Assembly (NCBI GenBank): GCA_913020295.1
Contig: CAJWAA010000010.1
Span: forward strand, 1 to 64,000
Length of the DNA stretch: 64,000 nucleotides
Reading direction: 5' to 3'
DNA from: an uncultured Flavobacteriaceae bacterium
GTDB lineage: Bacteria; Bacteroidota; Bacteroidia; Flavobacteriales; Flavobacteriaceae
Below are positions 33,431 through 44,158 of this stretch, piece after piece. Both the position numbers and the translations under genes were made by a program. The notes under the pieces are model-generated. The model did not search any database. It was not told the DNA's origin and worked only from the letters and a program-made list of their open reading frames with translations. Every line of letters begins with the position of its first letter. Within the stretch, counting starts at the first letter, position 1.

Positions 33431-34711
33431 ATGATGACAGCACGAGACACCACCATTTTTGATTTGATCGACTCAGAAGAAAAACGACAGTTAAATGGCA
33501 TTGAATTGATCGCCTCTGAGAATTTTACCAGCCCAGCCGTTATGCAGGCTACAGGATCTATATTGACCAATAAATATGCAGAAGGTTACCCAGGCAAACG
33601 CTATTATGGTGGATGTGAGGTGGTTGATCAAATCGAACAGATTGCGATAGATCGCGCCAAGGCATTGTTTGGCGCAGTATACGCCAACGTTCAGCCCCAT
33701 TCGGGTTCACAAGCAAATACAGCGGTATTTCATGCTTTTTTAAAGCCAGGAGACAAAATATTGGGGTTTGATCTATCTCATGGTGGACATTTGACCCATG
33801 GATCTCCGGTTAATTTTTCCGGTCGTTTATATGAAGCCCATTTCTATGGAGTTCAAAAAGAGAGTGGGAGATTGGATTACAACAATATTTTAGCTATCGC
33901 CAAAGATGTTGAGCCTCAAATGATCATTGCTGGTGCTTCGGCCTATTCTCGAGATATTGATTTTGAAAGGTTTCGTTCCATAGCCGATGAGGTTGGCGCT
34001 TTTTTATTGGCTGACATTTCACATCCCTCTGGAATGATAGCCACTGGATTACTTTCTAATCCAATTCCATATTGTCATGTAGTGACCACTACTACACATA
34101 AGACACTCAGAGGCCCCAGAGGAGGACTGATTTTAATGGGTGAGGATTTTGACAATCCCTTCGGCATTGTACTGAAAGATGGTACTTTACGGAAAATGTC
34201 ACATTTGTTAGATATGGCCGTTTTTCCTGGTAATCAGGGTGGACCATTAGAGCATGTAGTGGCCGCTAAAGCCATTGCCTTTGGAGAAGCACTAAAACCA
34301 GAATTTAAAGCTTATATGAAACAGGTTAAAAAAAATGCTAATGCCATGGCCAAAGCCTTTCTGAGTAAAGATTATCATTTGATCTCTGGGGGAACAGATA
34401 ACCATATGATGTTGATCGATTTGCGAAATAAAAATATAACAGGTAAAGCGGCTGAGCAGGCTCTAGTCAGGGCAGAAATAACCGCTAATAAAAATATGGT
34501 TCCTTTTGATGATAAATCACCATTTGTCACCTCAGGTATACGTTTTGGCACTGCTGCAATTACCACTCGTGGACTTAAAGAGAATGATATGGAAACGGTT
34601 GTAGATTTAATCGATCGCGTGATCTCTGATCCAGAGAATGTTAACAATATTTCAGCAATTGCCAAAGAAGTCAAGGAATTGATGATGAACAGACCATTGT
34701 TCAAAGCCTAA
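33431..34711 (+). CDS. glyA: Serine hydroxymethyltransferase
   Basis: Interconverts serine and glycine with tetrahydrofolate, the main source of one-carbon units. 426 residues, fold type I PLP enzyme. [35 protein letters not shown], the PLP lysine in [17 protein letters not shown] near 226, and [18 protein letters not shown] near 357 are diagnostic. Two ATG codons in tandem (33431, 33434) could serve as the start. Monocistronic, with a palindrome overlapping its promoter region. Confidence 0.96.
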
Positions 34712-34826: not shown

Positions 34827-37148
34827 GTGAGAACATATTTACTTTATTTTATTGGATCTTTTTTACTGGCATTAGGAATTAAAGCTATATACAGTTACCG
34901 TCCCCAAACTGAAATTTCAGCAGTGCTTGGCTCAGATGATCCACAGACTTCCTTAGCTAAAATCCCAGAGAATATCAGTTACAATTTTGACGTGAAACCG
35001 ATTCTATCCGATAAGTGTTACACCTGCCACGGCCCAGACCCCAAGTCAGTTAAAGCTAATTTAAGACTAGATATCAGTGATCATTGGTACAGAACAAGTG
35101 ATGCAAATCCAAATAAGCAGATTATTTTTTCAGGAAAGGTTTCCAATAGTGAGTTGGTTGATAGAATACGATCCACAAAAGCTTCCCACCAAATGCCTCC
35201 CCCTGAAACCAATTTGTTTTTGACCGAGAGGGAGAAACAAATCATTGAAAAATGGATTGAACAAGGAGCCAAATGGGAAACCCACTGGGCTTATATACCT
35301 CCTGTAAAAAATGATCCTCCACCAGGAAATTTTGATGCCCAAAGTACCAGCATCATTGATCGTTTTGTCATCAAACAAATGGTTAAAAAGGGATTGAAGC
35401 CTGCACCTAAGGCTCCTAAAGAGATTTTGCTTCGACGCTTGTATTTTGATCTTACGGGGCTTCCACCATCAATTAGTGAAATTGATAATTTTCTTAATGA
35501 CTTTTCTGAGGATGCATACGAAGATGTAGTGGATCGCTTGCTGCTATCCCCTTCCTATGGAGAGCGAATGGCATCAATATGGATGGACATTTCCCGATAC
35601 GCTGATACCAATGGTTATCAAGATGATACTGAAAGAACAATGTGGCCATGGCGTGATTGGGTGATTCATGCATATAATAAAAATCTCCCCTATGATAAAT
35701 TTATTACCTGGCAACTGGCAGGTGATTTGATTCCTAGTGCAACCAAAGAACAAATATTAGCCACTGGATTTAATCGTAACCATATGATCACCCAAGAGGG
35801 AGGAGTGATTGAGGAAGAATACCGTGTTGAGTATGTTGCAGATCGAGTCGTGACCACATCAAAATCATTAATGGGATTAACAATGGAGTGTGCACGTTGT
35901 CATGACCACAAATACGATGAGTTAACCCAAAAAGATTTTTTTAATTTATTTGACTTTTTCAACCAAATTGACGAAGAAGGTAGAATATCTTACCAAAATA
36001 AAGCACCTAGACCAAAATTGAAACTCGATCTAAATACAGTAAAAGAAGAACTTTCTTTTATCAAAATGCCAGATAGCATACCTGAGTTGGAGGTTATGGT
36101 TATGGAAGAGGTAAGAAATTTAAGAAAAACCTATATCCTGAATCGTGGTGCTTATGATTCTCCAACAGAGCATAAAGTTGAAGGGGGAATGCCAAGTAAC
36201 ATATTGAACTTCGAGGTTAATTTGCCTAAAAATAGATTAGGGCTTTCAAAGTGGCTTTTTGATCCAAAAAATCCCTTAACATCTAGGGTAGCTGTAAATA
36301 ATCTATGGCATCAATTTTTTGGCATGGGTATCGTGGCAACACCCTCCGATTTTGGAAATCAAGGTTCACTCCCTACTCATCCCGAATTATTGGATTGGTT
36401 GGCTGTTACTTTTGTAGAAGAAGGTTGGGATATTAAAAAGATGATCAAAAGAATAGTCATGTCTAACACCTATCAGCAATCAAGTAAATTTAATGTCTCA
36501 CAATTGAATATTGATCCTAAAAACCAATATTTATCTGTATTTCCAAGGCAAAAACTAACCGCGGAGATGATCAGAGATAACGTATTGGTGAGCAGTGGCT
36601 TGTTTGTTAACAAAATTGGAGGTCCCAGTGTTAAGCCATATCAGCCACCGGGCTTATGGGATGAAATGACTGGAGGAAGTACCTCTAATTCACTCAAAAG
36701 ATACGTCATGTCAACCGACGGTAATCAGTATCGAAGAAGTCTCTATACTTATTGGAAAAGAACGGTTCCTCCCCCGGGGATGATTACTTTTGATGCATCT
36801 ACCAGAGACTATTGTACTGTGGAGAGACAGAAAACCAGTACGCCATTACAATCCCTTATATTACTGAATGATCCACAGGTTCAAAATGCCGCTGAAGCGA
36901 TTGCCTCCCTTGTTCTGAATAGTGAAATCAAAAAAAATAAAGAACGCATAATTGAAATTCATCGTCGTATTACGGGAAGGACACCCACAAAAAAAACTCT
37001 ATCTCAAATGATTGACTATTTGGATACGGTAGGGGAGTTGCATTCTGAAAAAATGGGGGAATATAATAGCATGGACTTGGAATTTAAAAGTTTTACCTCA
37101 TTGGCGCTTATGATTTATAATTTGGATGAAACCACCCAAAAGAGTTAA
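34827..37148 (+). CDS. Planctomycete-type cytochrome / DUF1549 / DUF1553 secreted protein
   Basis: 773 residues from a GTG start. An N-terminal helix (LLYFIGSFLLALGIKAI) acts as signal or anchor. Residues of about 52-145 are a PSCyt1 domain with one c-type heme motif (Cys64-x2-Cys67-His68) followed by HGPDPKSVKANLRLD. Residues 180-400 are DUF1549 (PSCyt2; RLYFDLTGLPPS, a second CxxCH at 355-359 in CARCHDHKYD). Residues 480-760 are DUF1553 (PSD1; NPLTSRVAVNNLWHQFFG, RQKLTAEMIRDNVL). Function of these domains is unknown; they are abundant in Planctomycetes and Verrucomicrobia. First gene of a four-gene operon with DUF1501 and a polysaccharide lyase. Compact for the family. Confidence 0.9.
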   Translation: MRTYLLYFIGSFLLALGIKAIYSYRPQTEISAVLGSDDPQTSLAKIPENISYNFDVKPILSDKCYTCHGPDPKSVKANLRLDISDHWYRTSDANPNKQIIFSGKVSNSELVDRIRSTKASHQMPPPETNLFLTEREKQIIEKWIEQGAKWETHWAYIPPVKNDPPPGNFDAQSTSIIDRFVIKQMVKKGLKPAPKAPKEILLRRLYFDLTGLPPSISEIDNFLNDFSEDAYEDVVDRLLLSPSYGERMASIWMDISRYADTNGYQDDTERTMWPWRDWVIHAYNKNLPYDKFITWQLAGDLIPSATKEQILATGFNRNHMITQEGGVIEEEYRVEYVADRVVTTSKSLMGLTMECARCHDHKYDELTQKDFFNLFDFFNQIDEEGRISYQNKAPRPKLKLDLNTVKEELSFIKMPDSIPELEVMVMEEVRNLRKTYILNRGAYDSPTEHKVEGGMPSNILNFEVNLPKNRLGLSKWLFDPKNPLTSRVAVNNLWHQFFGMGIVATPSDFGNQGSLPTHPELLDWLAVTFVEEGWDIKKMIKRIVMSNTYQQSSKFNVSQLNIDPKNQYLSVFPRQKLTAEMIRDNVLVSSGLFVNKIGGPSVKPYQPPGLWDEMTGGSTSNSLKRYVMSTDGNQYRRSLYTYWKRTVPPPGMITFDASTRDYCTVERQKTSTPLQSLILLNDPQVQNAAEAIASLVLNSEIKKNKERIIEIHRRITGRTPTKKTLSQMIDYLDTVGELHSEKMGEYNSMDLEFKSFTSLALMIYNLDETTQKS

Positions 37149-37151
37149 TAG

Positions 37152-38627
37152 ATGGAAGAATTAAATAAATATTTTTTAAATAACAATAGGCGTCATTTTC
37201 TAAAAAATTTAGGCTTTGGTATCGGTGGTTTGGCCCTAGGGAGTCTGATAGATCCACTTAGCCTGAGTTCCATGGGAGAAGAAGGAGTTGCCCCTCAGTT
37301 ACAGTCAGGTCCATTGCCCTTACCTCATTTTGCGCCCAAGGCCAAAAGGGTGATTTACCTTTTTCAAAGTGGAGGTCCTTCACAATTGGATTTGTTCGAC
37401 TACAAACCATATCTTAACAAGTATCGAGGAATGGACTTACCTGATTCAATCAGGAAAGGACAAAGACTTACGGGTATGACGTCCGGTCAAGACAAATTTC
37501 CCGTTACCGGAAGCTTATTTAATTTTAAACAATATGGTGAATCCCGCGCTTGGGTGAGTGATTTGATGCCCAACGTATCTAAGGTAGTAGATGAATTGTG
37601 TTTTGTGAAATCCATGCATACCGAAGCTATCAATCATGATCCAGCCATCACTTTTTTTCAAACGGGCTCTCAGTTACCCGGCCGTCCCAGTATAGGTTCT
37701 TGGATGAGTTATGGCTTGGGAAGCCTCAATGATAATCTGCCTTCCTTTATCGTTTTGCTGTCCACCGGAAACGGAAAACCACAACCACAACCGCTATACT
37801 CTCGATTGTGGGGTAATGGCTTTTTAAGCTCATTGCATCAGGGAGTACAATTCCGTTCGGGCAAAGATCCCGTTCTGTATTTGCAAAATCCCGACGGGGT
37901 TTCCAGGGCTGAGAGAAGAGAAATGTTGAATCATTTGGCCTCGTTAAATGAGGCACAAGAAAAAACTTTTGGAGATCCGGAGATTAACAGTCGTATTTCC
38001 AATTACGAGATGGCCTATAGAATGCAAACCTCTGTACCTGAGGTGATGGATATCAGTGAAGAACCCGATCATATTTTGCGTATGTATGGTAAAAATTCTT
38101 ATCGTCCGGGTACCTATGCTGCAAATTGTCTCTTGGCCCGTCGCTTGATTGAAAAGGATGTACGTTTTGTTCAGTTGTATCACACGGGTTGGGATCAACA
38201 CGACAACCTTCCTGCCCAAATCAAACGTCAATCAGAGGATGTGGATCAGGGAACAGCAGCTTTGATCATGGATCTTAAACAGAGAGGTCTTTTAGAAGAT
38301 ACATTGGTGATTTGGGGTGGAGAATTTGGTCGAACCAACTACTGTCAGGGGAAACTCACCGATATCGACTATGGAAGAGATCACCACCCACGATCTTTTA
38401 CCATTTTTATGGCGGGAGGCGGAATCAAACCAGGATTTACCTATGGGGAGACTGATGATTTCGGATACAATATCGTCAAAGACCCTATGCATGTCCATGA
38501 TTTACAAGCGACCTTGCTGCATCAGTTTGGGGTTGATCACGAAAAAATGATATATAAAACCCAAGGCAGGAGGTTTAGATTGACCGATGTCTCAGGTGAA
38601 GTGAAAACTGACATATTATCTAGTTGA
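37152..38627 (+). CDS. DUF1501 protein with Tat-type signal
   Basis: 491 residues. The N-terminus NNRRHFLKNLGFGIGGLALGSL is a twin-arginine signal, so the protein is probably exported folded. The body is of the alkaline-phosphatase/sulfatase-like fold: VIYLFQSGGPSQLDLFDYKP near 75, PNVSKVVDELCFVKSMHTEAINHDPA, HTGWDQHDNLPAQIK near 343, VIWGGEFGRTNYCQG near 385, GRDHHPRSFTIFMAGGGIKPG. Conserved Asp, His and Glu residues suggest a metal centre but no reaction is established. DUF1501 genes habitually follow DUF1553 genes; here the gap is three bases. Confidence 0.9.
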   Translation: MEELNKYFLNNNRRHFLKNLGFGIGGLALGSLIDPLSLSSMGEEGVAPQLQSGPLPLPHFAPKAKRVIYLFQSGGPSQLDLFDYKPYLNKYRGMDLPDSIRKGQRLTGMTSGQDKFPVTGSLFNFKQYGESRAWVSDLMPNVSKVVDELCFVKSMHTEAINHDPAITFFQTGSQLPGRPSIGSWMSYGLGSLNDNLPSFIVLLSTGNGKPQPQPLYSRLWGNGFLSSLHQGVQFRSGKDPVLYLQNPDGVSRAERREMLNHLASLNEAQEKTFGDPEINSRISNYEMAYRMQTSVPEVMDISEEPDHILRMYGKNSYRPGTYAANCLLARRLIEKDVRFVQLYHTGWDQHDNLPAQIKRQSEDVDQGTAALIMDLKQRGLLEDTLVIWGGEFGRTNYCQGKLTDIDYGRDHHPRSFTIFMAGGGIKPGFTYGETDDFGYNIVKDPMHVHDLQATLLHQFGVDHEKMIYKTQGRRFRLTDVSGEVKTDILSS

Positions 38628-38631
38628 TCCG

Positions 38632-40728
38632 GTGGAGTACGCTTTAGAAATATTAAAATATGTTGGTAAATTCCACCCCTTGGTGCTCCATTTACCGATA
38701 GGGTCTTTAATAATGACCTTTTTGTTGTTAGTTGTTTCAAGATATCAAAAAGCAAGTCTTGAAAAGGCGATTCGTATTGGGGTTGATTTTTCATTTGCAG
38801 GAGCATTAATGGCCGCCCTGATGGGCTGTTTACTTTCTTTAGATGAGGCCTATGATTTCAGCAGCTTGAAATTCCATTTTTGGGCCGGTATCATCACTTT
38901 AATTCTAAGCTTTAGCTTGTGTATTTTACATCGAATGAAGGGTAAGGAAAATCTTTTTTTTGGTTCTTATCTCCTGACTTTACTCTCATTAACGGTTGCA
39001 GGACACAAAGGGGGTCAAATTACTCATGGTGAGGATTATCTTTCTACTGCCGCTCTGTTTGAGGAGCCAATTATGGTGGTCCAAAAAGACAGTCTAGATT
39101 ACTACAAAGAAGTTGTTCATCTGATTTTTGAAGACAAATGCGTTAGTTGTCACAATTCCAACAAAAGTAAAAGTGAATTACGTTTGGATCGCTATGATCT
39201 GATGTTAATAGGAGGAGAAAGAGGAAGTATGTTTGATGCCCAACATCCAAATGAAAGCCGATTGATTCAATATATCAACCTGCCCAAGGAAGACAAATTG
39301 CATATGCCGCCCAAAAATAAGTCTCAATTGAGCGAAAAAGAGAAATGGCTACTGACAGATTGGGTCACTTCCGGTGCCTATTTGAAAGAAGGGAAGGTAA
39401 GCCTTTTAAAAAACGAAAATTTAGAGTCAAATGTATTGTCATTTTTGGGAGCTGACAAACAGGTGAGGGCAGCCAGTAGAGGAGATTTGGCAAAGCTTTT
39501 GGCCACAGGTTTTAGGATAAAACCCAATGCCTTACACGACAATCTCTTAAGGATTAAGTTTATGAAATCTCGCTTAACTAGTGATCATTTGAAAACTTTG
39601 GTTAAGGTCAAAAAACAACTTTTCGAATTGGATGTCAGTAATACCAATTTTGATGATGAAATGGCTACTATTTTGATAAATTTCCCACGGCTTAAACACT
39701 TGCGATTGGATCAGACCAAAATCAGTGATGATGCACTGAGTTTCCTAAAAAATACAGCACTAGAGGTCTTGAATTTGTGCAATACCAAAGTCACCCATCA
39801 AGGGGTAGAAAACCTACTTAAAGTGAAGCCTCCAAAAACGGTTTATGCTTGGAACACTGCTATTGATAGGGATCAACAAAAGCAATTGGCTTCCATTGCT
39901 CCTTCATTGATCCATTTTGGAACTGCAGATTTGTTTTCTGAAAGGTTGAACCTCAGTCCACCTGAGCTCCATAATGTAAATGTAATCTTTGAAGATACTA
40001 TTAGTGTAGTGTTTAAAAAGTCTCAAGTAAAAAATATCAATATCCACTACACCTTAGATGGTAGTGAGCCCGATGAAAATGCCCCTGTTTATATGGCTCC
40101 TATTTTGCTAAATGACTCTAAAATGTTAAAGGCAAAATCTATTAAGAAGGGCTGGATTGACAGTCCTCTATTTGAACAAATGATCTTTAAAAACAGTAAT
40201 CAGATCATTGGTTACAAGGTTAACAATGATTTGGACAAGAGTTTTTCCATTAGCCACCATGTCAATTTTACTTTTAAAGACAATCAATCGGTTTTATTTG
40301 ATGGAAAAAAGGGAAAAAGAGTGTATAGAGGGACTAGTATTGAAGATGCCAAGACTTGGTTGGGGGTGGTAGAGGAGGATTTGGAGATTGAGGTAAAACT
40401 TAAGGATTCGGATCAGATAAATTATATTACCCTCAGCATGTTGGAAAACCAGGATATGAGAACTGTTTTTCCCAAAAAAATTGAAGTGTATGGTAAGTCA
40501 GCACAAGGAAAGTATAAGTTGTTAAATTCCTTGGATATTCCTGTTCAACAAAACCCTGATGAAAGAATATCTTATTTCAAAGATTTTACTTTGGCTGTTG
40601 ATTTGAAGGGTTATGATGAGGTTAAGGTAGTAGGGGTAGGCCATGGAAAGTTTCCCGACGCCCCCGTATATAGAAGGTTTATCAAAAGAAATGCTTGGAT
40701 TTTTGCCGATGAAATTATCTTTTGGTAA
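38632..40728 (+). CDS. DUF2231 / PSCyt1 cytochrome / leucine-rich / chitobiase-C-like membrane protein
   Basis: 698 residues from a GTG start, four bases after DUF1501. Residues 1-140 form a DUF2231-like membrane module (KFHPLVLHLPIGSLIMTF; four helices; GHKGGQITHGEDYL). Residues 150-250 are PSCyt1 with a heme motif at Cys170-x2-Cys173-His174 and HMPPKNKSQLSEKEKWLL. Residues 285-420 are leucine-rich (LKHLRLDQTKISDDAL, LEVLNLCNTKVTHQGVE). Residues 445-520 resemble the chitobiase C-terminal domain (IHYTLDGSEPDENAPVY). The end (about 530-690) looks like an F5/8-type carbohydrate-binding fold. It probably anchors electron transfer and glycan contact in the envelope; no enzyme activity is visible. 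Confidence 0.82.
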   Translation: MEYALEILKYVGKFHPLVLHLPIGSLIMTFLLLVVSRYQKASLEKAIRIGVDFSFAGALMAALMGCLLSLDEAYDFSSLKFHFWAGIITLILSFSLCILHRMKGKENLFFGSYLLTLLSLTVAGHKGGQITHGEDYLSTAALFEEPIMVVQKDSLDYYKEVVHLIFEDKCVSCHNSNKSKSELRLDRYDLMLIGGERGSMFDAQHPNESRLIQYINLPKEDKLHMPPKNKSQLSEKEKWLLTDWVTSGAYLKEGKVSLLKNENLESNVLSFLGADKQVRAASRGDLAKLLATGFRIKPNALHDNLLRIKFMKSRLTSDHLKTLVKVKKQLFELDVSNTNFDDEMATILINFPRLKHLRLDQTKISDDALSFLKNTALEVLNLCNTKVTHQGVENLLKVKPPKTVYAWNTAIDRDQQKQLASIAPSLIHFGTADLFSERLNLSPPELHNVNVIFEDTISVVFKKSQVKNINIHYTLDGSEPDENAPVYMAPILLNDSKMLKAKSIKKGWIDSPLFEQMIFKNSNQIIGYKVNNDLDKSFSISHHVNFTFKDNQSVLFDGKKGKRVYRGTSIEDAKTWLGVVEEDLEIEVKLKDSDQINYITLSMLENQDMRTVFPKKIEVYGKSAQGKYKLLNSLDIPVQQNPDERISYFKDFTLAVDLKGYDEVKVVGVGHGKFPDAPVYRRFIKRNAWIFADEIIFW

Positions 40729-40759
40729 TTGATTCATTAATTTTTCTGAAATTAAAGAG

Positions 40760-43045
40760 ATGAAAACCAATTATTTAAATTCAAATCGTGTGTTGTTTTT
40801 TTACAATAAGTTAGCATTACTTCTTCTATTTAATTTTAATTTCATCAATGGCCAATCCTCTGATATTGATATTATTAGGGATAGAGTATATCACACTATT
40901 TTGGATAACTATAACTACTCCGTATTTTCATCTACAGAATCCGGGTTTGATGATGAAGCAATAAAAAAGATTCTATCAGATTTCGATGGAAATAAGTGGC
41001 CCTACATTCGTTATGAGGACGTCTCCAGAGAAGGTTTCGACAATACCATTCACTTAAATAACTTATTGAGGTTGGCTGTAGCTTATAAGAGCTCAGCTTC
41101 CAATTATTTTAATGATAATAATATTTTAAAGACGATTATCAGAGGATTAAAGTTTTGGTGTGATAATGATTTTATTGGTGAGAACTGGTGGAATAACCAA
41201 ATAGGAACGCCACGAATGTTGGTTCGAATAATGCTTGTTATTGGAGATGAGCTGCCTCAAAAATTGATTTTAAAATCTCAAAAAATTATCGACAGAGCTG
41301 ACATTACCAAAGGTGGTTCAAGACCAGGAGGCGATCGCATCAAAGTCGCTTCTATTGCCGCCAAAAATCAACTTTTTTTGAAAAACCAAACCCAATTTGA
41401 GTTAATCATCAACATTATAGAAAATGAAATAAAGTTTGTGGATTGGATTGGAACAGAATTTGGTTATACCTATTCAAATTCCGATACAGGAGGATTTAAT
41501 GAATTTATAAAGGCAAATGGCAGGGGCTTACAATATGATTATAGCTTTCACCATAGAACCGATGGGGTGAACAATACCCTCTCATACGGACTAGGTTGGG
41601 CCTATGCTTTTGTAGAATGGGCTTTTTATACAAGGAATACAGATTATTCTTTTTCGAGCGATAAATCTAAAATCCTAGTAGATTACTATTTGGACGGTGT
41701 TTGCAAGACTTCCGTTTACGGTGTAAAACCTGATTTTGGAGCTAAGAATAGAAGTATTTCAAGGATCGGAAGTACCAAAGCATTCGATAATGAGATTCCC
41801 AAGAAGATCTTGGCATTGACCAGCTACAGGTCTGATGAATTGAAGCAAATTATAAAATTGAGGTCAAAAGACGCTAATGTTAAACCAATTTCACACGCTA
41901 CTTATTATTGGAATAGCGAGCATTTTGCATTTCAAAGACCTGATTTCTATTCTTCAGTTAGATTGTATTCCTCCCGAAATATGAACATGGAGAGTCCATA
42001 CAACAGTGAAGGATTATTGAATCATCATAGAGGAGATGGTGCCAATCATCTTTATACGTATGGATATGAGTATGAAGATATTTCTCCTGTACTTGACTAT
42101 CAGAAAATTCCAGGAACAACGGTTGTGCAAAAGAAAAAATTACCCCATCATCATGATATAAAAAAATTAGGCTTTACTGATTTTGTAGGCGCTGCTACTG
42201 ACGGAAACTACGGAGTAGTGGGCTTTGACTTTAAAAGCATTCATGATCCGCTGGTAGCCAGAAAATCATGGTTTTTCTTTGATGACCAATACGTATGTCT
42301 GGGTTCTGGAATCTCAACAAAATCAAAAAATGAAGTTAATACAACCATCAATCAGTGTTTGTTAAATGGAGCGGTTAACATTTCCTCTAAAGGAAAAAGT
42401 CGAAAACTTGACAATGGATCTCAGGTGTATCATGATATTGAATGGATTCATCATGATAATGTGGCCTATTTTTTACCTGTTTCAGGAGATATAGAGCTTC
42501 ACAATGATTTTTCAGAAGGTTCGTGGTGGAGGATCAACAGGCAGATCGATTCATCTAAAGATCAAATCAGCAAAGAGGTATTTAAGTTGTGGATCGACCA
42601 CGGTGTTTCTCCCAACAATGAATCTTATGAATATATTGTTAGACCGAATACCAACCTTGATGAATTAGAAAAAGGAAAAGTCACAAATCCTATCGATATA
42701 ATTTCCAACACTCCCTATTTGCAGGCAGTTCAAAACAAAGAGGTCAACCTTATTCAGGCTGTTTTTTATCGTGCAGGTCAGTTGGAAATTATTGATGAAT
42801 TGACCATTCAAGCTTCTGCACCTTGTATTTTAATGTTACAGTTAAATCAAAACGATCAGGTCGAACAAATTACGGTTAGTGACCCTAACAGGGAACTATC
42901 TATTTTGGTTCTGAACCTCTCTAAAAAGTTTGAGGCATCGGCTGAGAATTATAGATCTGAGTGGATAGCTGATCCAGGCTATACTAGGGTTATTGTTAAT
43001 TTACCCACACAGGGGTATTCAGGAAAATCTGTCGTGATTCGTTAA
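40760..43045 (+). CDS. Polysaccharide lyase family 8 (chondroitin/hyaluronan/xanthan lyase type)
   Basis: 761 residues with a signal peptide ending near FNFINGQ. The N-terminal alpha/alpha toroid (about 30-370) holds the catalytic elements: ENWWNNQIGTPRML (Asn), YSFHHRTDGVNNTLSYGLGW (His and Tyr) and the Arg in AKNRSISRIGS. The C-terminal beta-sandwich begins near 380 and includes NMNMESPYNSEGLLNHHRGDGANHLY and YDWQK-like DYQKIPGTTVVQKKKLP. PL8 enzymes cleave uronic-acid polysaccharides by beta-elimination. The exact substrate is not readable. It lies 31 bases after the cytochrome gene and is probably the operon's last gene. Confidence 0.9.
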   Translation: MKTNYLNSNRVLFFYNKLALLLLFNFNFINGQSSDIDIIRDRVYHTILDNYNYSVFSSTESGFDDEAIKKILSDFDGNKWPYIRYEDVSREGFDNTIHLNNLLRLAVAYKSSASNYFNDNNILKTIIRGLKFWCDNDFIGENWWNNQIGTPRMLVRIMLVIGDELPQKLILKSQKIIDRADITKGGSRPGGDRIKVASIAAKNQLFLKNQTQFELIINIIENEIKFVDWIGTEFGYTYSNSDTGGFNEFIKANGRGLQYDYSFHHRTDGVNNTLSYGLGWAYAFVEWAFYTRNTDYSFSSDKSKILVDYYLDGVCKTSVYGVKPDFGAKNRSISRIGSTKAFDNEIPKKILALTSYRSDELKQIIKLRSKDANVKPISHATYYWNSEHFAFQRPDFYSSVRLYSSRNMNMESPYNSEGLLNHHRGDGANHLYTYGYEYEDISPVLDYQKIPGTTVVQKKKLPHHHDIKKLGFTDFVGAATDGNYGVVGFDFKSIHDPLVARKSWFFFDDQYVCLGSGISTKSKNEVNTTINQCLLNGAVNISSKGKSRKLDNGSQVYHDIEWIHHDNVAYFLPVSGDIELHNDFSEGSWWRINRQIDSSKDQISKEVFKLWIDHGVSPNNESYEYIVRPNTNLDELEKGKVTNPIDIISNTPYLQAVQNKEVNLIQAVFYRAGQLEIIDELTIQASAPCILMLQLNQNDQVEQITVSDPNRELSILVLNLSKKFEASAENYRSEWIADPGYTRVIVNLPTQGYSGKSVVIR

Positions 43046-43135: not shown

Positions 43136-44158
43136 TCATTCTTTGAGTTTAATTTTAACTTCAAATAATTTACTCCAATTTTTTCCAGTAACAAAAAATG
43201 TTTTTCTTTTCGGATGATAAGCTATACCATTCAGAACATCCAAATTGGAAACTTGTTCAACTTTACTTTTCAATCCTGAAAAATCAATAACCCCATCGAC
43301 CCTACCATTATTTGGATCAATAATGATGCCTACTTCTTTATTGAATTGGTAGGTATTGGCATAAATTTTACCCTCAACCCATTCCAATTCATTTATTTTT
43401 TTTATGGCATTTTTATCGGTCATCACCTGAATTTTATCAATTTCTTTTTGTGTTTCAGCATCCAAAATCCAAATTTGATGAGATCCATCGGACTTGAACA
43501 TCCTTTTACCGTCATTACATAGACCCCATCCTTCTTTACTGTCTTGATAAGCAAAAGAGCGTTCTACTTTGAGTTGATCAGTACGGTATTGAAGACCCAT
43601 ATTGCCTTGCCAAGTAAGCTGATAAAGTTTATCATTTAAAATGGTTATACCTTCCCCAAAATATACCTTATCCAAAGCAACTTGATTGTAGATTTCTCCA
43701 CTTATAAAATCAACTTTACGTAAACTAGATTTTCCCCTCAATCCTGTGCTTTCATAAAGAGTGTCTTTGTAAAACTCCAAACCTTGTGTGTAGGCGGTTT
43801 TGTCGTGTGGAAATTCGTTGACTATTATGTAAGAGTACAATCTTGGTTTTGAGGGAGATACAATACTAATCTTTTGTATATATTCTAATTTATTTCTGGA
43901 AACATATACCGAAGCTTTTATGTTATAAATCCCTAATTTTTTATTGTTCAATGGTTGATTTTCACTAATTTTTTTTCCATCTAAATGGTAAACTATTGAA
44001 TCAATGATATGATTTTTTTTATTCGTAAGAATAAATTTTAATGTATCGCTGGGAATAAATTTTTTACTTTTTTTAATAACACTCAGTTTAAAATCTTTTG
44101 TGATATCTGTGTTACATTTGAGCAAAAACAATGAGAGGAGTAAAATCCATATTTTCAT
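43136..44158 (-). CDS. Glutaminyl-peptide cyclotransferase (glutamine cyclotransferase family), lipoprotein-like
   Basis: 340 residues. The N-terminus MKIWILLLSLFLLKC resembles a lipoprotein signal with an atypical LLKC lipobox. From about residue 105 to the end there is the five-bladed propeller of the plant/bacterial glutamine cyclotransferase family: FPHDKTAYTQGLEFYKDTLYESTG, WGLCNDGKRMFKSDGSHQIW, ELEWVEGKIYANTYQ, VLNGIAYHPKRKTFFVTGKNW. These enzymes convert N-terminal glutamine to pyroglutamate, which is common on exported Bacteroidota proteins. Convergent with the PL8 lyase; no functional link is implied. Confidence 0.88.
   Translation of the reverse strand: MKIWILLLSLFLLKCNTDITKDFKLSVIKKSKKFIPSDTLKFILTNKKNHIIDSIVYHLDGKKISENQPLNNKKLGIYNIKASVYVSRNKLEYIQKISIVSPSKPRLYSYIIVNEFPHDKTAYTQGLEFYKDTLYESTGLRGKSSLRKVDFISGEIYNQVALDKVYFGEGITILNDKLYQLTWQGNMGLQYRTDQLKVERSFAYQDSKEGWGLCNDGKRMFKSDGSHQIWILDAETQKEIDKIQVMTDKNAIKKINELEWVEGKIYANTYQFNKEVGIIIDPNNGRVDGVIDFSGLKSKVEQVSNLDVLNGIAYHPKRKTFFVTGKNWSKLFEVKIKLKE

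Follow-up and report, generated by a model that had tools for sequence, protein, structure and literature searches.

Genes encoding PSCyt1-PSCyt2-PSD1 proteins and accompanied by a neighbouring gene family of unknown function have been described in Verrucomicrobia (PMC5615132, in the part of that study drawn on here). We report a related locus in an uncultured Flavobacteriaceae bacterium (NCBI GenBank assembly GCA_913020295.1; 1.97 Mb, 27 contigs, 91% completeness), consisting of four plus-strand open reading frames (ORFs) at positions 34827-43045 of a 64,000-nucleotide part of contig CAJWAA010000010.1 (C10), hereafter the window. They encode a short PSD1 protein (gene 1), a DUF1501 protein (gene 2), a membrane cytochrome (gene 3; genes 1-3 are called the triad below) and a polysaccharide lyase of family 8 (PL8; gene 4), with gaps of 3, 4, and 31 bp and the start codons GTG, ATG, GTG, and ATG. 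An earlier sequence-only reading of the window had placed these ORFs, their gaps and both GTG starts correctly, and took them for a laterally acquired operon forming a secreted haem machine for the lyase. Its remark that the families lack established biochemistry agrees with the description of PSCyt gene functions as unknown in the relevant part of the Verrucomicrobia study (PMC5615132).

The window locus resembles the Verrucomicrobia system in its PSCyt/PSD domain make-up, in a neighbour from an unknown family (unnamed there) and in the carbohydrate-binding parts of some copies. It differs in belonging to Bacteroidota, in its short PSD1 form without Laminin_G, and in the frequent third gene for a membrane cytochrome, while the part of that study considered here describes neither a third gene of this sort nor PL8 (PMC5615132). 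The closest systems on the lyase side are polysaccharide utilization loci (PULs) that combine PL8 with heparinase II/III-like proteins, such as those of Draconibacterium, Mariniphaga, and Cyclobacterium; a few PL8 loci outside the genus have SusC/SusD proteins 52-57% identical to those of a PUL on contig C17 of the window genome. Unlike these PULs, the window genome carries PL8 behind the triad and on a different contig from its own PUL. In Flexithrix dorotheae (L139:9977-17270), PL8 is followed on one strand by a 1204-aa DUF2231-PSCyt1-PSD3-PSD5-PSD4-PSCyt3-PSD2 protein and then by DUF1552, a PSCyt3-DUF1552 pair that is a sibling of PSD1-DUF1501 with other cytochrome and partner families, seen in one of the 80 PL8 loci compared below. 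Among the titles and abstracts listed by our literature searches, none joined PL8 with PSD1/DUF1501, and none described a Bacteroidota unit of this kind in which a membrane cytochrome is encoded third.

We conclude, with a probability of about 75%, that the four genes are two joined units, the triad (unit A) and an added PL8 gene (unit B), and no single new machine. We read the locus in this way because the triad holds one site in the genus whether PL8 follows it or not, because gene 3 homologues accompany short PSD1 elsewhere and PL8 genomes can lack PSD1, and because PL8 and PSD1 fall in clades of separate trees, one genome retains a scar of PL8, and PL8 relatives have HeparB and other PUL genes as neighbours. 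Unit A is an old conserved operon of Bacteroidota, and the four-gene operon as such is an arrangement local to a single genus.

Placement of the triad and PL8 in the genus

The genus sample comprised 22 genomes (the window genome included) of 1.3-2.2 Mb. Full-length orthologues of the short PSD1 protein (66-82% identity) are present in 19 of these, again counting its own, and a partial copy lies at a contig edge in G020; no PSD1 of the short type was found in G005 and G008. The left neighbour of the triad is glyA on every genus contig showing that side except in G013, and 15 of the 18 contigs that show the right side have a gene of the glutamine-cyclotransferase family there as the right flank, either directly or with PL8 or further genes in between (Table 1). 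Two of these 15, in G008 and G017, show PL8 and the flank but no triad; of the other three, G016 and G018 have a different right side and G001 is unresolved. In G018 (L087:5042-12232), glyA and gene 3 each occupy two frames, owing to draft errors or decay.

PL8 is less constant. An orthologue was found in 16 of the 22 genomes and none came from G002, G005, G013, G018, G019, and G020, several of which are only 65-90% complete. It directly follows the triad in eight (G000, G001, G009, G010, G011, G015, G016, and G017); because the gene 3-PL8 order thus recurs in seven genomes besides that of the window, it is no assembly artefact. In G008, PL8 adjoins the right flank and the contig ends at the PL8 start, so this copy is probably triad-linked too. 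PL8 lies elsewhere, beside a sulfatase, in six genomes (G003, G004, G006, G007, G012, and G014; Pfam-checked in two) and away from the triad in G021, and G016 has an additional distant PL8 near sulfatases. In nine genomes (G002, G003, G004, G006, G012, G014, G019, G020, and G021), no PL8 stands between the triad and the right flank. The G020 gap, 99 bp long (L111:4213-4311), keeps PL8 codons 752-760 (of 761) in frame, and the pieces of this scar (gene 3 end, PL8 codons, and right flank) are 88-90% identical to the window at the DNA level. Because an in-frame remnant of PL8 stands between gene 3 and the flank, PL8 was deleted there.

In the PL8 tree the genus forms one clade (Shimodaira-Hasegawa-like approximate likelihood ratio test, SH-aLRT, 100) amid mostly Bacteroidota proteins, and a single branch (100) sets the triad-linked copies apart, the PL8 of G021, which lies elsewhere, being nested among them. 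Most simply, PL8 moved once to the triad in the ancestor of a genus subclade and was later lost or moved. No PSD1 match whatsoever was obtained from 5 of the 12 PL8-carrying genomes searched by locus, and the lyase therefore does not require the triad. The idea of a machine made for the lyase does not fit a triad that remains in genomes where PL8 is missing, has been deleted or lies at another place, nor PL8 genomes devoid of PSD1.

The triad beyond the genus

We compared a control set of 31 PSD1-centred Bacteroidota loci and 27 short-PSD1 loci, from 20 genomes, outside the genus. A DUF1501 gene is present in all 31 as in the window, and a gene 3 homologue in 22 of the 27 (missing in L090, L236, L242, L243, and L326). 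We propose to recognize a short-PSD1 triad by a DUF2231-PSCyt1 third gene in the locus, which the window has. Across 247 genomes of the phylum (E up to 1e-3), 61, its own included, match PSD1, many solely through the small PSCyt1 part; matches above 700 bits occur in 14 genomes besides its own. An extra gene of about 341-346 aa stands between genes 2 and 3 in seven non-genus loci, and the one at L229:12078-13103 (~341 aa) bears an NHL repeat.

The PSD1 tree (72 rows, midpoint root, SH-aLRT supports; Planctomycetes sampled as one genome with 8 PSD1 copies, Verrucomicrobia not included) places the window protein in a genus clade (100), which is joined first by G025 (99) and G027 (100) from the same family; at the next level stands a clade of short forms comprising 43 Bacteroidota rows. 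The copies of the planctomycete genome lie outside the Bacteroidota clade to which the window protein belongs. An ancient transfer of PSD1 between phyla is possible and would be far older than this locus. The proposed lateral acquisition as an operon finds no support: the triad is syntenic in the genus, the PSD1 protein is nested in genus, family, and Bacteroidota clades, and PL8 falls in its own, mostly Bacteroidota clade; the two trees are separate and show no shared foreign origin, and close relatives carry the triad at the same site.

In each of nine loci we profiled one outer or inner neighbour. These were PNPase (L236, which lacks gene 3), biotin carboxylase (L240), SIS, Glucosamine_iso/PIG-L (twice), GH123, an ApeA-type gene inside the triad of L239, and two genes without a family. 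Because these surroundings are mixed, they imply neither housekeeping nor sugar use as the role of the triad.

Usual partners of PL8 and the host genome

The PL8 locus scan used one genome per species and found at least 577 related loci, of which it gave the best 80: 7 (L112-L116, L120, and L122) from this genus and 73 from outside. DUF1501 or PSD1 lies within 10 kb of PL8 in two, both in the genus, and in none of the 73, many of which sit on short contigs; a link of PL8 to DUF1553/DUF1501 thus has no parallel among these loci except through the sibling system of Flexithrix, which comes close to what the sequence-only reading had named as its refutation. Relatives of HeparB (contig C17) stand near PL8 in 42 loci (29-61% identity; at least 50% in 15 loci, 29-38% in 25), all among the 73, and SusC in 14 (3 at >=50%), BNR_4 in 12, and SusD in 7 (5 at >=50%). 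The corresponding counts in the 31 PSD1-centred loci are 0 for HeparB, 2 for SusC, 0 for BNR_4, and 1 for SusD.

No sulfatase (profile, E 1e-3) and no SusC or SusD (proteins of the same genome, E 1e-5) was matched by the window's 52 ORFs at this sensitivity, as the sequence-only reading had stated. An adjacent SusC and SusD pair, by which we recognize such a PUL, is found in the same genome on C17, with two heparinase-like proteins, BNR_4, GH88, a PhoD-type gene, and a sugar-transporter gene; farther along C17 lie KduI-family, SDR, KDPG-aldolase-family, PfkB, DctM, and UxaC genes. A second GH88 stands on contig C26 between sulfatase-like genes, and the genome has four SusD matches on contigs other than that of the window. 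A plan different from that of Bacteroidota PULs is not supported: relatives of this lyase are often found together with heparinase-like lyases, in some cases also with BNR_4 and SusC/D, and its own genome keeps such a PUL. Because PL8 adjoins a sulfatase in six genus genomes or directly precedes a SulP-type permease in two (G010 and G017; L075:15194-16723 and L110:6049-7578), its substrate, judged from gene context, is probably a sulfated uronic-acid polysaccharide.

The genome has one PL8, and it matches PSCyt2 five times and DUF1501 five times, once weakly. The Laminin_G insert that the short window protein lacks is present in three long PSD1 copies, each of which adjoins DUF1501, in the contexts sulfatase/GH92/GH29, esterase/GH51/GH43/sulfatase, and DUF4838/CBM9. 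The fifth PSCyt2 copy, truncated by the edge of C17 (G000:C17:221-2269, L009), belongs to the uronate locus and adjoins a gene of the 3-keto-disaccharide-hydrolase family.

Proteins of the locus

The domains assigned earlier were borne out at Pfam cut-offs, except that two in gene 3 fall below them. Gene 1 has PSCyt1, PSCyt2/DUF1549 (7.6e-86), and PSD1/DUF1553 (2.2e-95), a single N-terminal hydrophobic stretch, and CxxCH at residues 64 and 355, which places it in the PSCyt2-PSD1 family. Gene 3 has PSCyt1 (1.9e-11), Fn3_assoc, and CHB_HEX_C_1 above the cut-offs, DUF2231 (1.7e-3) and a leucine-rich repeat (LRR) model (1.6e-3) under them, three hydrophobic stretches, and CxxCH at residue 170; DUF2231 passes in a paralogue (L007:4224-5579). 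Genes of CcsA type and for TatC were found in the host genome, and the locus proteins are predicted to be exported and the cytochromes among them to be loaded with haem.

Gene 2 is a DUF1501 protein (6.1e-157) with the twin-arginine (Tat) motif RRHFLK at residue 13, in line with the Tat export noticed earlier. The predicted fold of DUF1501 is that of the alkaline-phosphatase (AP)/sulfatase superfamily, while its identity to AP/NPP/sulfatase members (PDB 7cba, 5egh, 5tj3, and 1p49) is only 11-16%, and the sulfatase D-H-G-R corresponds to E-F-G-R in a marginal alignment. We rejected an S1 formylglycine sulfatase: C/S-x-P-x-R, which we take to be the signature of that class, occurs in none of the 32 aligned DUF1501 rows. 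Within the genus (six orthologues each), DUF1501 is the best conserved of the four genes (88-95% identity, compared with 55-82% for genes 1 and 3 and 82-95% for transaldolase), and we infer that it is the catalytic unit of the triad. DUF1501 homologues also occur on 39 contigs classed as viral (L247-L285), and PSD1 lies beside DUF1501 in just 12 of 40 viral-contig loci (L247-L286), so DUF1501 occurs alone and phages may carry it by itself. On the 91-kb contig of L247 (DUF1501 61% identical), phage-family thymidylate synthase and nuclease genes lie close by, and several viral contigs have DUF1501 doublets of about 423 and 454 aa.

Gene 4 has one N-terminal hydrophobic stretch and the Lyase_8 N, super-sandwich, and C domains over the Pfam cut-offs (69.8, 248.9, and 59.3 bits; 7.6e-74 for the second). 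Its best solved match is chondroitinase AC (PDB 1cb8 and 1hm2; E about 1e-81), which aligns along the whole catalytic part. The canonical PL8 active site comprises Asn, His, Tyr, Arg, Glu, and Asn, with Tyr and His catalytic in chondroitinase AC; Tyr, two Arg, Glu, and Asn of that enzyme match in gene 4, while the His loop of gene 4 reads SFHHRxDxVNNT and an Asn position is Asp192. Among 85 aligned PL8 proteins, Tyr276, Arg331, Glu411, and Asn415 are kept in all, Asp at the Asn position in 82, and HHR in 83. Gene 4 scores 337 bits against an NCBIfam chondroitinase-AC cut-off of 1000 bits. The window protein belongs to a large PL8 group that is apparently distinct and to which the name chondroitinase should not be extended. 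Members of the Asp/HHR group (window, L112-L191) come from Bacteroidota and from a few Planctomycetota and Latescibacterota contigs.

Table 1. Genes, flanks, spacer, and sequence motifs of the locus, in window coordinates (residue conservation from 32 DUF1501 rows, 12 PSD1 rows, and 85 PL8 proteins).
Feature	Position	Strand	Remarks
Gene 1, short PSD1 protein (PSCyt1-PSCyt2/DUF1549-PSD1/DUF1553)	34827..37148	+	773 aa, GTG
Gene 2, DUF1501	37152..38627	+	491 aa, ATG
Gene 3, DUF2231-like membrane part/PSCyt1 (mono-haem)/LRR-like/Fn3_assoc-CHB_HEX_C_1	38632..40728	+	698 aa, GTG
Spacer between triad and PL8, 31 bp	40729..40759	+	31-51 bp across 8 genomes
Gene 4, PL8	40760..43045	+	761 aa, ATG
glyA, left of triad	33431..34711	+	left neighbour on 15/16 genus contigs showing that side
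Glutamine-cyclotransferase-family gene, right of site	43136..44158	-	15/18 genus contigs showing that side
CYTCH haem motif, PSCyt1 domain of gene 1	35016..35030	+	motif scan
CARCH haem motif, PSCyt2 domain of gene 1	35889..35903	+	C355, C358, H359 invariant in 12/12 rows
Twin-arginine motif RRHFLK, gene 2	37188..37205	+	motif scan
D348-Q-H350, candidate metal ligands, gene 2	38193..38201	+	D348, H350 invariant in 32/32 rows; putative role
E391-F-G-R394, gene 2, E391 candidate metal ligand	38322..38333	+	marginal-E alignment to sulfatase D-H-G-R; putative role
D410-H411-H412, gene 2	38379..38387	+	D410, H411 invariant in 32/32 rows; putative role
CVSCH haem motif, gene 3	39139..39153	+	motif scan
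PL8 D192	41333..41335	+	aligns to Asn of two distant PL8s; D in 82/85
PL8 H264-H265-R266	41549..41557	+	chondroitinase AC catalytic His lands on R266
PL8 Y276	41585..41587	+	aligns to chondroitinase AC catalytic Tyr; 85/85

Weighing the two-unit reading

Several observations weigh against two independent units. The spacer of 31-51 bp has been kept in eight genomes and the gene order survives PL8 identity down to 63%, either of which could mean real coupling, although this persistence is tempered by a neighbourhood that is largely syntenic as a whole. Support for the short-PSD1 clade is just 83, and four short copies (L096 of G013, L242, L243, and L326) fall outside it. CAZyme-like genes lie near the triad in 6 of the 27 loci (L090, L091, L097, L228, L231, and L232), in a limited comparison. 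At 29-38% identity, 25 of the 42 HeparB relatives show the family rather than an orthologue, and HeparB is near PL8 in none of the seven genus loci of the best 80. Within the genus, HeparB occurs in 8 of 16 genomes with PL8 vs. 1 of 6 without it (Fisher p 0.33; incomplete metagenome-assembled genomes). The PL8 loci, drawn from the top of a larger set, are also interrelated.

It is possible, if clearly less probable than two joined units, that the two units are loosely coupled, the triad acting on oligosaccharides as a general redox/hydrolase complex behind which PL8 has been kept since co-expression helps. The lasting of the arrangement through the diversification of eight or nine species fits this explanation, as do the fold that DUF1501 has in common with sulfatases, the travelling of PL8 with sulfatases elsewhere in the genus, and some triads elsewhere that lie near CAZyme-like or amino-sugar-type genes (GH123, GH92, SIS, and Glucosamine_iso/PIG-L). 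Such persistence requires no selection in a largely syntenic neighbourhood, however, and four genomes that group with, or close to, those having PL8 behind the triad (G002, G013, G020, and G021) lack PL8, have had it deleted or carry it elsewhere.

Possible to about the same degree is a triad unrelated to carbohydrates, that is, a core envelope system (e.g., respiratory, or an envelope enzyme for phosphate or sulfate esters) with PL8 as a passenger. Such a system would fit the fact that 19 of the 22 genus genomes carry a full-length short PSD1 gene and one more a partial copy, the constant place of the triad beside glyA, and the conservation of DUF1501 at the level of transaldolase. Of the nine profiled loci, two have plain housekeeping neighbours (PNPase in L236, where gene 3 is lacking, and biotin carboxylase in L240), but the others have SIS, Glucosamine_iso/PIG-L, GH123, ApeA-type or familyless neighbours; moreover, the long PSD1-DUF1501 paralogues adjoin CAZymes, and gene 3 itself carries Fn3_assoc/CHB_HEX_C_1.

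A laterally acquired four-gene secreted haem machine, whose triad oxidises PL8 products and replaces a PUL, is very unlikely: the order and 31-51 bp spacing across eight genomes, the PSD1-DUF1501 pairs of the same genome next to sulfatases, GH92, GH29, GH43, and an esterase, the sulfatase neighbours and CBM domains reported for PSCyt genes of Verrucomicrobia (PMC5615132, in the part considered), and the PL8 of Flexithrix beside a PSCyt3-DUF1552 system speak for it, but the triad precedes the same right flank without PL8 in nine genus genomes, one of them scarred, DUF1501/PSD1 is found at 0 of 73 non-genus PL8 loci, the phylogenies are separate, and a PUL with the lyase's usual partners is retained on C17. 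Of the secreted haem system itself, the four same-strand genes, the export signals and the three CxxCH motifs stand, but not its being a single machine made for the lyase.

Possible mode of action and significance

Under the two-unit reading, the triad would most likely act at the outer face of the inner membrane. The Tat-exported DUF1501 metalloenzyme would cleave or bind an ester- or sugar-like substrate, the membrane-anchored di-haem PSD1 protein might oxidise that substrate or what is made from it, and gene 3, a membrane protein that would add one more cytochrome and binding-type domains, could use its haem to relay electrons from PSD1 onward to the respiratory chain. As a whole this redox/hydrolase mechanism is doubtful. 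The secreted PL8 would cut a uronic-acid polysaccharide (probably sulfated) via beta-elimination. Often a PUL member in relatives, it would have moved once to the 3' end of the triad, where it may be transcribed by read-through from the triad's promoter; the 31-bp spacer was searched for a terminator-like site and none was found. Its products would be passed to GH88, sulfatase, KduI-type, and tripartite ATP-independent periplasmic (TRAP) transporter genes on other contigs. We consider it unlikely that the triad is an undescribed membrane complex, widely conserved in Bacteroidota and combining an AP-fold hydrolase with a three-haem path, that has recruited PL8 in this genus, oxidises the lyase products and delivers the electrons to respiration.

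The focus thus shifts from a presumed lyase machine to a compact, conserved three-gene unit of a genus with small genomes and of the wider Bacteroidota. Because DUF1501 is structurally linked to phosphatases and sulfatases and the operon is small, the function of the triad is open to testing. The case also shows a PUL lyase ending up behind an apparently unrelated operon, which calls for caution with guilt by association. If true, control of PL8 together with the triad would mean an oxidative step added to polysaccharide breakdown.

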